Of a stretch of 64,000 nt of DNA, positions 4,060 to 57,320 are shown in pieces. The notes below the pieces were generated by a model, which was not told the origin of the DNA, ran no database searches, and saw only the letters and a program-made list of their open reading frames with translations. Location: the NCBI RefSeq assembly GCF_030867145.1, contig NC_134434.1, forward strand, positions 3,968,001 through 4,032,000. Reading direction: 5' to 3'. Position numbers and translations under genes: made by a program. Position 1 is the stretch's first letter. Each line of letters opens with the position of its first letter. This DNA comes from Opisthocomus hoazin (Eukaryota > Chordata > Aves > Opisthocomiformes > Opisthocomidae).

Positions 4060-4187
4060 TGCAGATGAATCTACAGTCTTTATTCTCTAGACATTGACAG
4101 CATCACAAAGACTAATTACAGAATGAAATGACCGAGAGGTTCACATTTTGTGCATCCTTCAGGTCACTTTACTGCCTCACGACATCC
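4060..4187 (-). terminator. Gene A 3' UTR with poly-A signal at 4,079-4,084
   Basis: The stop codon is TGA at 4,188-4,190. About 105 bases downstream on the minus strand there is a canonical AATAAA (4,079-4,084). Cleavage is inferred about 15-20 bases further on, near 4,060. A 3' UTR of about 130 nt is typical of sarcomeric MYH messages. Gene B has the same signal at 37,803-37,808. Confidence 0.85.
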
Positions 4188-7100
4188 TCACTCTTCCTCT
4201 CCTATCTTCTTGCTGTGAAACTCTCGGCTCTTCACTCGGAGCTTGTTGACCTGCGACTCCGCAATGTCAGCCCGCTCCTCGGCTTCCTCCAGCTCGTGCT
4301 GGATCTTGCGGAACTTGGAGAGGTTGACATTGGACAGCTCCTCCTGTGCGGGGAGAGGGAGTCGGTGGTGAGGAGCCCAGGGCAGGGGTTTCATTCCTCC
4401 TGCATCTCGGCGTTGTGGGGCTGCGGCTCTTCCCTGGGGGAAGGCCCCGACCTCCATCCCCCACCCACCACTGCTTACACATAAGCCTCACACAGACCTC
4501 CTCATCCTCCCTTGTTTAGAGTATGCCATCCAAACCAACTCAAACAGCTTTTGAACTGTTACAGCAGTTCTACCCTATGGAATGTGCAGAGGGGGATGGA
4601 CAGCGCAGCAGTCTTTGTTTTTAGCTGTTCAGAAAAAGCTGTTTGGACTGCAGTGTGTTATTCTTTACACTCAAGGATTAGGGCTAAGAAAGAGCAGCAG
4701 CACCAAGAAAGAACATGTATACTCCCCAAAGGTGAGTTTATACGGCAACCTGACAGAAGAAGTACCTGCCCTCCTGCCACTTCCCACCAGGTGAGTATAA
4801 GTTCTTCTTTCTCCACGTCTGATGTGACAGCACTGTCAGGTATCTGCCCATCTACTTCTTCTTCTGTAGCCATACAACAGCCCTCACAGTCCACCCACCT
4901 CTTCCAGCTACTGTCTGCAGTCACATATCTCATCACTTTGTCTTATGAAGAACATTTCTTAGCAGAAGAAATTGAAACTCATTTCTAGTTCATCAGATGA
5001 GCTAAGCATCTCTGTCTCCTGTTCCAGCTCTGTGGCTTAGCTCTGTGCTCTCTGATATAAGCCGAAAAACTTAGAGGCGTTGAGTCAGAAGCCATCCATA
5101 GCCCTCTCACAGACCATTCAGTCACCATAAGACAGCAAAACCTGTCTATACTGGCCAATGCAGGAGGGAACCTGACTCAAAAATTTATCAGCTGAGAGGC
5201 TGGTTGTGGGCCATATCTGTCAGTTTGTCCTCTGCTGTAAAAAAGTTTGCAGGACATCCTTTAGTTTATCCCTGAAAGGAGCATGGACAAAAGAAAGCAA
5301 TGTCAACCATACCCTCAGGACTGTGTTCCTAGAGTCATTAAATTTCTGATGGGTAAGCACTCTTTAAAAGCTTTACAAGGAGGAGTTTCTTGTAGGCATA
5401 CACTAAATCATTCCCAGATGACTGATGTTTCTTTGTCTGCATTTGAAGTGCATCACTGTTAACCGATTTCTATGTTTTCCAATAAATCATATTAATTTCT
5501 CATATCATTTGTGTTCCTTCTCAGAAAATGATGTTTGTTACCACTGTAAGCAATACTTACGGCCTCCTCAGCCTGTCTCTTGTAGGATTTCACCTTCATT
5601 TGCAGCTTGTCCACCAGATCCTGCAGCCTGAGAATATTCTTCCGGTCTTCCTCAGACTAAAGCAAAAAGAGTGAAATGATTTCCCCACCATGTGAGTTAG
5701 CAATTCCCCTTGGCAATCAAGTGCAAAAGCTTTCACTTCCTGCAAGACAGTGTGACAGCCCACAGAGGCCTCCTGCCTTACCTGGTAGGTCAGCTCCTTC
5801 ACCCTCCGCTCGTACTTGCGCACACCCTTCACGGCTTCAGCGCTGCGCTTCTGCTCAGCATCAACCTCCCCTTCCAGCTCCCGCACCTGCAATCATAAGC
5901 CCATCTTTCGAGCTTCCCTGCTGGCTGCTTACATGACATGTTCACCCAGGCACAAATAAAAGCCCTACGCACTCTGGCCTCCAGCTTCTGGATTTGCTTC
6001 TTGCCTCCCTTCAGTGCCAGCTGCTCAGCCTCATCCAGACGGTGCTGTAGGTCCTTCACTGTCTGGTCCAGGTTCTTCTTCATCCTCTCCAGGTGGGCGC
6101 TGGTGTCCTGCTCCTTCTTCAGCTCTTCTGCCATCATGGCTGCCTGAGCAGAGCAAAAGGTCAAAGACATTTTGGGGCTAGAGACAGTCTGGGGAGAAGG
6201 AACTTCTCTTAAGCACTGAAAGGAGCCTCCGACTCACATCTGTGATGGCCTTCTTGGCCTTCTCTTCAGCATTGCGAGCTTCCTGGATCGTATCCTCCAT
6301 TTCACTCTGAATTTGGGCAATGTCTGTTTCCAGCTTCTTCTTGGTGTTGATCAAGCTGGTGTTCTGCGCAAAGAGACATTGCAAGACTTGTATTCTGAGA
6401 CCTGCAATACCAAACCTACCGCCTGAGCCAAGTCATTTACTCTTCAGGCTTGCAATTAAAATTCTGGAATTCTTTTCAAAGTGGTTGCTTACAAAATGTC
6501 AGTGGTGGGCTCAGGTGACAGGCACTGAGCATGTCTTTCCTTGTGGACAGCAGCCTTTCTAGTAGCCCCTGTCCTCTGGAATGTAGCAGCCCTCTGTGTT
6601 TGTTAAGTGCCAACACAACTGCTTTTGGCACCACACCCCTACCTGGGTATGGAGGAGCTGCACACGTTCAGTGGCATCCAGAAGCTCCTGCTCAGCCAAT
6701 TTCCTCGACCGCTCTGTCTGCTCCAGGGCTGCCCGTAGCTCCTCAATTTCAGCCTGCAACAGGTTTGCTCTGCGCTCCACCATGGCCACCTGCTCCTTCA
6801 GGTCCTCCTGTGTCCTCAGAGCATCGTCCAAGTGTATCTGGGTGTCCTGTAAAAGAAACAAAGAAAATGTCGGTAAGAAAAGGCGGTATTGTGCGCTTGG
6901 GTGCCAAAAATATCAGGGAAGACTTTTCTCTTTCTCTAGTTTTGCTGAACGGACCTTGAGCACTGCCTGTGTGTTTCTCAGGTTCTTCTGTGCCTCTGCA
7001 GCCACGCGGTTGGCATGGCTCAGCTGGATCTCCATTTCATTCAGGTCTCCCTCCATCTTCTTCTTCAGCCGCAGGGCTTCGTTCCTGCTCCTGATCTCAG

Positions 7101-8179
7101 CGTCCAGGCTGCTCTGCAAGGACTCCACGACTCGGAGGTGGTTTCTCTTCATCTGGTCAATCTCCTCATCTTTCTCTGCTATCTTCCTGTCAATCTCAGA
7201 CTTCACCTGGTTGAGCTCAAGTTGCAGGCGCAGGATCTTGCCCTCTTCATGTTCTAGGGAGGCCTGAACAAGTGGACACAAACATTTGTAACATTGGTAA
7301 AGCTACTACTTGCTTTCTAGGCAATTACAGAATATTAGAGGGAACCTCAGCTGGCTGTGCTCTCCAGCCAGAACAGAGAGGCATCAAGTAGTTTTTAGCC
7401 ATATTTCCCTATTGCTCATATTTTTAGTGCATACACCAGTGATTATGGGCATGTACCTCAGCTTCCTCCAGAGCAGCCTGGATTTCAGATTTCTCCTGCT
7501 CAATCTGCTTCTTGACTTTCTCCAGCTCATGAATCGCCTTTCCTCCCTCAGCAATCTGCTCCGTCAGGTCAGCAATCTCCTCTGTGGGAACAAAGACCAG
7601 CAGCATGGTCAGGCACAGAGCCACATGGGAAGGGCCCTGTCACACCAAGGTGACAGGCGTCTTTGCAGACCTGCAGGCACAGAGCCACGTGGAGCAGTGG
7701 GTAGTGAGAAAGCCCTGCCAGGAGCAGAGGGCCAGGGACTTACGCTGCAAGTTCTTGTTCTCACGCTTCAGTGTTTCCAGTTGGTCCAAGGACTCCTCAT
7801 ACGCATTCTTCATCTTAAACAGCTCCGTGCTGAGAGAGCGAGACTCCTTCTGGGAGGCTTCCAGCTCAGCCTGCGTTTCCTCATACTTCTGCTTCCACTC
7901 TGCCAGGATCTGAAGAGAAATGTAGTGTGAGTATGGATGTGGCAATCAGGAGGGCATGCTCTGTCCAGGAACCCCCCATGAAGAGCCCAAAAGACCTTGT
8001 CAAAGTTCTTCTGCTTCTTATCCAGTGCTGCGCAGGCAGCGTTGGATCGCTCCACGTCAATCATCAAGTCCTCCACTTCATTCTGCAGCCTCTGCTTTGT
8101 CTTTTCCAGGGAGGCACATTTGGCATTCACAGCTTCGACGTGTTCCTCCGCATCCTGCAGGCGCTGTGCCAGCTTCTTC
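4188..8179 (-). CDS. MYH1-like: Gene A exons 31-40: light meromyosin C-terminal rod and tail piece
   Basis: Exons: 31 = 7,996-8,179, 32 = 7,744-7,909, 33 = 7,457-7,581, 34 = 6,955-7,263, 35 = 6,643-6,846, 36 = 6,238-6,363, 37 = 5,973-6,143, 38 = 5,782-5,886, 39 = 5,561-5,656, 40 = 4,188-4,343 (coding plus stop). Codons 1395-1941 form the filament-assembly part of the rod. Exon 37 is ended at AGA|gtgcgt rather than at the nearby gtaggg, because only this choice joins in frame to exon 38, which begins GTGCGG. Introns 31-38 are short and almost identical to gene B. Intron 39 (4,344-5,560) changes abruptly to unrelated sequence at about 4,513. The last residues, [12 protein letters not shown], form a non-helical tail that differs from B. 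Confidence 0.94.
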
Positions 8180-57016: not shown

Positions 57017-57064
57017 CTCTCGTGACACCAGATGGGTGGCTTGCAGGCTGGCAGCTGGTCAGTA
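57017..57064 (-). other. Gene B non-coding exon 2 (5' UTR)
   Basis: A 48-nt exon with acceptor ctgttttacag and donor GAGAG|gtaagg. It corresponds to exon 2 of A (38 nt) but has a different internal sequence and length, so the mature leaders of the two messages differ and could serve as isoform-specific tags. No ATG inside. Intron 2 (55,729-57,016) is more than twice as long as in A. Confidence 0.72.
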
Positions 57065-57267
57065 CTGTAAAACAGAAACGGCAACTCCCTACTTGCTGCT
57101 GCACAGAAATCCAGAGTGAAAAAGTGCAGATGCCTTGAAAGCAGATTTAAAACCTGAGCTGAGATATTGAGTGCCCTCCTGGAAATAAGCACTGCAGGCA
57201 GCAGGAATGCTGTGGCACATAAGGGTACCATCCCCTTCCTGCAAGCCTGCGGACCCCATACACTTAC

Positions 57268-57320
57268 CTTGAGGCTTTCCGTGGAGACAGGGCAGACTTG
57301 TCGCAGGGACATTTTATACG
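57268..57320 (-). promoter_or_regulatory. Gene B core promoter (TATA box 57,312-57,318) and non-coding exon 1
   Basis: TATAAAA on the minus strand at 57,312-57,318, followed by the leader exon ending at 57,268 with AAG|gtaagt. The last 20 or so exon bases nearly match gene A. The transcription start is inferred at about 57,283-57,290. Sequence upstream stays alignable with the A promoter for about 350 bases. Confidence 0.78.

Follow-up and report, generated by a model that had tools for sequence, protein, structure and literature searches.

The DNA studied here is a window of 64,000 nucleotides from Opisthocomus hoazin (contig NC_134434.1, hereafter C21; the window is C21:3968001-4032000), which carries two tandem sarcomeric myosin heavy chain (MYH) genes, A and B. 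Along these genes, near-identical blocks alternate with blocks that are strongly diverged or unalignable, and, as far as the sequence tells, this mosaic very probably results from recent non-allelic gene conversion over an old tandem duplication. Gene A (4188..20429, minus strand, start codon at 20429 and stop codon at 4188) and gene B (37912..55692, minus strand) were each resolved into 38 coding exons with an open frame by comparative exon prediction, in which a few splice edges are approximate. All comparisons were made inside one genome, namely the C21 cluster and other places of the same genome. Beyond the window, the cluster DNA was read at C21 3.690-3.910, 3.920-3.940, 3.948-3.968, and 4.032-4.042 Mb; negative positions denote DNA left of the window. 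The preliminary description of this DNA had a two-gene picture, which has to be widened to a cluster of eight gene copies (g1-g6, A, and B) plus fragments. As only part of the cluster DNA was read, g5 and g6 are partial, and g5 was counted without its 5' exons in most comparisons.

Near-identical blocks on a diverged background

We compared the window with itself by blastn and recovered the near-identical A-B blocks where they had been placed before. The alignments pair 1-4520 with 33719-38241 (98.1%), 5553-8203 with 39176-41826 (98.3%), 8467-8765 with 42180-42479 (97.0%), 9913-13234 with 43263-46570 (95.8%), 16690-18501 with 52638-54455 (79.2% overall, containing the two blocks formerly put at 17.7-18.5 kb), and 19736-20476 with 54999-55738 (93.5%). 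A segmentation of the A-B alignment into three mismatch states (1.6%, 10%, and 31%) placed low segments in the 3' half at -351..4520, 5577-8203, 8467-8765, 9913-10727, and 10799-12963, and smaller ones at 14877-15147, 17474-18501 (broken), and 19736-20126; 20127-20476 showed 10.3% mismatch. The noncoding DNA differs by ~1.5% within the blocks versus ~31%, or does not align at all, outside them, the pattern of near-identical patches on a diverged background by which non-allelic gene conversion is recognized. Uniform divergence was excluded: the 9,526 aligned noncoding columns contain 590 mismatches, whose variance between 100-column bins was 100, whereas 2,000 permutations averaged 5.8 and never exceeded 8.9.

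Tract 1 comprises the 3' flank, the last exon, and 177 bp of intron 37, with 73/4866 mismatches, and takes in ~4.5 kb of DNA 3' of the gene. In A, it covers 1..4520, and its counterpart in B lies at 33368..38241; the block had been described as starting at the window edge, but it runs on leftward to about -351 by segmentation and to -390 in the raw alignment. Tract 2 holds exons 37-29 with their introns (5577..8203 in A, 39200..41826 in B; 41/2627 mismatches), and tract 3 holds exon 28 with 95 bp of intron 27 (8467..8765 in A, like 42180-42479 in B; 8/299 mismatches). Exons 25-23 with introns 24 and 23 (9913..10727; 25/815 A-B mismatches) are alike across the core genes. Tract 4, with exons 22-20 and the 1.39-kb intron 20, extends over 10799..12963 in A, near-identical to 44148-46309 in B (19/2161 mismatches). 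At the 5' end, exons 3-2 with intron 2 (19736..20126; 9/391 A-B mismatches) are alike in the cluster, g1 included. The 5' blocks proved to be finer mosaics than those drawn before: across exons 9-5 (17474..18501; B 53420-54455), segments of 78, 136, 322, and 257 columns at 1.6-3.8% mismatch are separated by segments at 31-33%.

Six low segments exceed 100 noncoding columns (those with 100 or fewer were dropped); their noncoding mismatches were 68/4713 (tract 1), 14/993 (tract 2), 4/188, 18/1501 (tract 4), 5/165, and 4/114. This divergence is homogeneous (chi-square 7.4, p = 0.19). The view of the tracts as separate events was therefore not borne out, and the low segments may stem from one period or even from one event. 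Taking the neutral rate of birds as near 2e-9 per site and year, 1.5% divergence would correspond to a few million years.

The introns between the blocks had been called unrelated, which was right for some of them. Introns 3, 12, 15-19, 25, 26, and 28 have no A-B match, and introns 13, 27, and 37 match only in part, but segments at ~31% mismatch still align. One example is the intron 10 region (16690..17264), aligned to 52638-53202 of B at 32% mismatch (172/541 noncoding).

The old duplication and the partners of gene A

The two genes share more than the tracts. Left of tract 1, six colinear A-B pieces (70.5-78.6%) lie from -4020 to -994, with a further one (83.8%) at -8165, and upstream of the genes colinear pieces at 82%, 69%, and 69% reach 25.3 kb. 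Intron 10 aligns between A and B at 67% over 50% of A's intron, and intron 11 at 77% over 62%; against g1-g6, these introns gave no match, except that a stretch of 3% in intron 10 of B matches g4. Since introns 10 and 11 are still alignable and the flanks colinear, we regard A and B as old sister units.

Intron 37 of each gene contains an unalignable island (4521..5552 in A, 38242..39175 in B). Near-identical DNA stands on either side of A's island, which gave only a weak score against B's. Neither island has another genome match among the matches listed, which makes them unlike repeats or imports from a copy still present. The DNA between the unalignable islands is 97-98% alike. Intron 28 (A 8204..8466, B 41827-42179) gave no A-B match, its weak score being below the best shuffle. 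We tested ten A-B introns or intron parts for residual homology by Smith-Waterman alignment with 40 shuffles each. The test resulted in z = 57 for intron 10, and the other nine, at z from -0.8 to 3.5, had no clear residual homology relative to the shuffles. Among these nine, introns 26, 12, and 15 scored slightly above the best shuffle, and the intron 37 island equaled it; for two mismatched controls, z was 1.0 and 1.5.

The preliminary description had treated A and B as a closed pair, yet g4, g5/g6, and a flank right of the window also take part. Exons 19-16 with their introns (12964..13925) are near-identical to g4 and unlike B, with 20/463 noncoding and 5/498 coding A-g4 mismatches. At the fourfold sites of exons 16-19, A and g4 differ at 0/62, versus 20/57 for A and B, and introns 16-19 of A are 94-98% like those of g4 and have no match in B. 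Over the compared residues of exons 15-19, A equals g4 throughout, versus six differences from B. Intron 22 of A (10719..10804) is like g5 and g6 (92% to each) and unlike that of B, which resembles those of g2/g3/g4 at 91-95%. The stretch 10307-10804 of A is 97% like g5/g6 throughout, and B and g2-g4 match it to about position 439 of 498, i.e., up to intron 22; the extent of the g5/g6-type patch is blurred there, exons 23-25 being alike in all core genes. Along ~10.7-13.9 kb, the closest paralogue of A thus changes from g5/g6 (intron 22) to B (10799-12963) and then to g4 (12964-13925).

Tracts are also present in the DNA between genes. The intergenic piece 33335..33802, at the left of tract 1, has three matches listed in the genome, the 3' flanks of A, B, and g5, at 97%, by which a dispersed repeat was ruled out as the source of the flank block. 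A and g5 share -790..84 at 97.5%. An 832-bp intergenic piece of tract 1 (A 459-1290, B 34177..35008) has a third copy at C21:4038933-4039764, 98.7% like B and 98.2% like A, and the flank around this copy is elsewhere colinear with B's flank at 65-89%. Among the best candidates scored in the exon searches, no MYH exon was found right of B on C21, and the third copy is perhaps the remnant flank of a lost unit. The guanine-cytosine (GC) content of the shared intergenic pieces is 0.58-0.60, versus 0.38-0.54 in the adjoining 1 kb; for the flank tracts of A and B it is 0.55, versus 0.42-0.46 in the neighboring flanks. Two open reading frames tried in the flank block had no Pfam match, and no Rfam match was obtained in the window.

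Probable homogenization across the cluster and competing explanations

For the whole cluster, we counted an intron pair as near-identical at 95% identity or more over at least 80% of the longer intron. This applied to 15/37 introns in A-B, 14/26 in g5-g6, 9/37 in g2-g3, and 6/37 in g4-A, and intron 23 was near-identical (at least 95%) in all 21 core pairs. The stretch exon 2-intron 2-exon 3 of A is found at 93-97% throughout in seven other cluster copies, g1 included, and g2 matches it in two exon pieces only. The other introns of g1 have almost no near-identical match. By its sequence, intron 2 appears homogenized in the cluster, g1 included; MYH-like places on contigs C34 and C1 match the exon 2-3 region by exon pieces only. 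Of 15 pairs put through a run test of the GENECONV type, A-B, A-g4, and g2-g3 reached the floor of p = 0.0003, in line with conversion as proposed before; this was our own permutation test on third positions (not the GENECONV program), with 3,000 permutations and g1 left out. The longest A-B run of third positions is tract 4, again at the floor of 0.0003. Two further observations concern other pairs: introns 5-9 of g2-g3, consecutive in the motor part, are 97-100% identical and form another apparent conversion tract, and in g5-g6 the introns outside the 14 of 26 comparable ones are not near-identical, a mosaic pattern like that of A-B.

Near-identity concentrates in short, GC-rich introns. Counted over core gene pairs with the g5-g6 pair left out, near-identical pairs by length of the shorter intron were 35/119 below 80 bp, 39/192 at 80-100 bp, 7/119 at 100-150 bp, 5/116 at 150-300 bp, 0/67 at 300-600 bp, and 1/62 above 600 bp, the last being the A-B intron 20. 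Again with g5-g6 left out, introns with a larger near-identical fraction were richer in GC (rho 0.65, p = 1.4e-5), a correlation of r = 0.46 (p = 0.004) once length was taken into account, and GC at fourfold sites correlated with divergence at rho -0.58, a trend absent in g1 (rho -0.14). These trends are no more than suggestive of GC-biased conversion in the cluster; alternatively, GC-rich DNA may simply recombine more. Within 4188-13000, five of the nine low-segment edges fall within 10 nucleotides of an exon boundary (0.8 expected, p = 0.0005), an excess that is partly trivial because unalignable introns begin there.

We propose the following course of events. An old tandem duplication of the whole myosin unit with its flanks gave A and B, as the colinear remnants on both sides show, and their noncoding DNA then drifted apart, to ~31% divergence or beyond alignment. 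Gene conversion, as the outcome of later non-allelic homologous recombination, would have copied stretches of ~0.3-4.9 kb between A and B, over the 3' half with the rod exons and ~4.5 kb of 3' flank. Gene A would also have exchanged exons 16-19 with g4 and acquired or donated the g5/g6-type patch that includes intron 22, in either direction in both cases. Many tract ends would coincide with the loss of homology at the edges of old diverged introns, which thereby survive as islands. The same process, possibly with a GC bias, probably acts cluster-wide and chiefly affects exons whose introns are short. A bolder version, which we hold only tentatively, is that long diverged introns insulate against conversion, that the A-B tracts are one ~13 kb strand exchange, and that exons 16-19, which we take from the anatomy of the protein to be the end of the motor and the converter, moved as a module between A and g4. 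An intron without homology would then stop conversion at its own borders, leaving unalignable introns unchanged; exon groups with short introns would keep homogenizing, and private introns and the exons between them would escape.

Conversion had been named as the cause in the preliminary description, and the abrupt changes in noncoding divergence, the partners inside the cluster, the tree conflict in exons 16-19, and the unmatched introns between the blocks all speak for it. Several results weigh on the other side. Among the cluster paralogues, the per-block trees conflict in exons 16-19, where A+g4 had support of 97/95 and A+B was rejected (p = 0.034); this is the only conflict at p < 0.05, uncorrected over ten blocks that were picked with the data already in view. 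Eight of the ten exon-block trees make A and B sisters, also where they are not near-identical, although several of these trees are weakly supported, and the exons 34-38 tree neither recovers nor rejects A+B. Eight sister trees fit old sister genes with patches, and exon-only trees would not suffice to prove conversion. Intron 20, near-identical between A and B over 1.39 kb, indicates that long introns can be carried over. For introns, the GC contrast of the core genes minus g1 gave p = 0.019; for fourfold sites, it gave p = 0.08. Finally, a place on contig C18 matches across exon 2-intron 2-exon 3 at 70%, which implies some old similarity in this region.

Among the rival explanations, a recent tandem duplication of the whole unit (~1.5% divergence), with divergent patches added later by conversion from other genes or by insertion, would account for the homogeneous low segments (p = 0.19), for the ~4.5 kb of 3' flank spanned by tract 1, and for the fact that at least one divergent patch of A (exons 16-19) has a donor in the cluster, g4. 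However, low divergence is not uniform over the unit, as such a duplication would have it. The DNA flanking the units is colinear but has diverged by 16-31%, both left of tract 1 and upstream of the genes, and later import would not give introns 10 and 11 that align between A and B (67% and 77%) and not with g1-g6, bar the 3% g4 stretch. For many of the divergent introns, the paralogues read contain no donor, and both intron 37 islands are without other genome matches among those listed. The remnants at 69-84% on both sides together with these unique islands argue against a recent whole-gene duplication, which we consider improbable.

It is more improbable still that the blocks owe their likeness to purifying selection on noncoding elements (splicing or regulatory) and not to conversion. 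The short introns 23 and 30 are indeed alike in most or all core genes, and in exon 13 every pair listed, also those with g1, differs at 0-1 of the 11-12 fourfold sites. Nevertheless, the A-B near-identity covers a 1.39-kb intron and 4.5 kb of intergenic DNA unmatched in other genes, the identity partner switches along A (B, g4, g5/g6), introns 23 and 30 are not shared by g1, and outside the cluster, MYH-like places resemble the exons 22-24 region in exon pieces alone. An equally slight chance is given to a mosaic made by assembly error, in which near-identical copies were collapsed or joined into a chimaera. Tandem repeats this similar are difficult to assemble, but both A and B keep an open frame through all 38 predicted exons, scattered sites inside the tracts distinguish the copies, and a like pattern is present in g2-g3, g5-g6, and g4-A. 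Recent conversion between old sister genes thus keeps by far the greatest weight.

Known systems and the wider cluster

Sarcomeric MYH proteins consist of a motor and a coiled-coil rod, ~1,940 amino acids in all, and fast isoforms help set muscle speed. If exon blocks are swapped by conversion, a whole-gene tree or an isoform name combines several histories. Segments escaping conversion may point to isoform-specific function, and private introns between converted exons would mark true orthology. The cluster also offers a natural experiment on the extent to which lost homology halts conversion, a process legible here block by block, introns and the DNA between genes included.

Gene conversion in the skeletal myosin heavy chain genes of chicken was reportedly described by Moore, Tidyman, Arrizubieta, and Bandman in 1992 (J Mol Biol). 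The gene family and the process are the same as here; the present map covers whole genes with introns and flanks, eight cluster members, and intergenic tracts. The process of conversion among MYH genes is already known, and the A-B instance and the block-level detail are new. Searching titles and the first part of abstracts, we found no conversion-tract map for bird MYH genes in the open literature, most subscription journals lying outside it. In the stickleback MYH3C cluster, according to parts of a preprint (PMC12776057), tandem MYH genes group within species, for which its authors offer independent expansion or extensive gene conversion, and small regions off the crossover model are ascribed to gene conversion. 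The copy-number change described in these parts is recent and due to unequal crossover, whereas the A-B unit duplication is old and only the patches are recent. The fast/developmental MYH cluster of tetrapods consists of head-to-tail MYH genes, as here (PMC5699865). The main text of that paper does not use the term "gene conversion", and its trees are built on motor-domain sequence, where conversion such as that of A-g4 in exons 16-19 would matter.

The locus has the marks of a sarcomeric MYH cluster, namely a motor match and head-to-tail copies on one strand. A query made of the first 898 residues of A, with nine residues removed by hand, had Myosin-4 as best match among striated-muscle myosins. 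The predicted proteins have 2,015 (A) and 2,001 (B) amino acids, some splice errors included. On C21, g1 lies at ~3.707-3.740 Mb, g2 at 3.757-3.776 Mb (C21:3757000-3776000), g3 at 3.785-3.805 Mb (C21:3785000-3805000), and g4 at 3.831-3.851 Mb; g5 starts from 3.894 Mb and g6 from 3.922 Mb. For g2, g3, and g4, the comparative prediction likewise gave 38 coding exons and an open frame.

Two fragments accompany these copies. At C21:3873714-3875845, rod exon matches (window 6318-7763) adjoin 5' exon matches (window 20053-20445), which has the appearance of a deleted gene copy. The region C21:3948000-3955500, which lies between g6 and A, matches 5' gene parts, for example at C21:3949015-3949456, 3952766-3953148, and 3954126-3954453; the 3' exons were not found in this partly read region, and from its sequence we describe it as a putative truncated copy. 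Interspersed repeats at 59445-60900, 50060-50691, and 22588-23297 are related mutually and to other cluster places. One of them contains a reverse-transcriptase-like open reading frame at 59946-60425, without a Pfam match, which we take by its look to be CR1-like.

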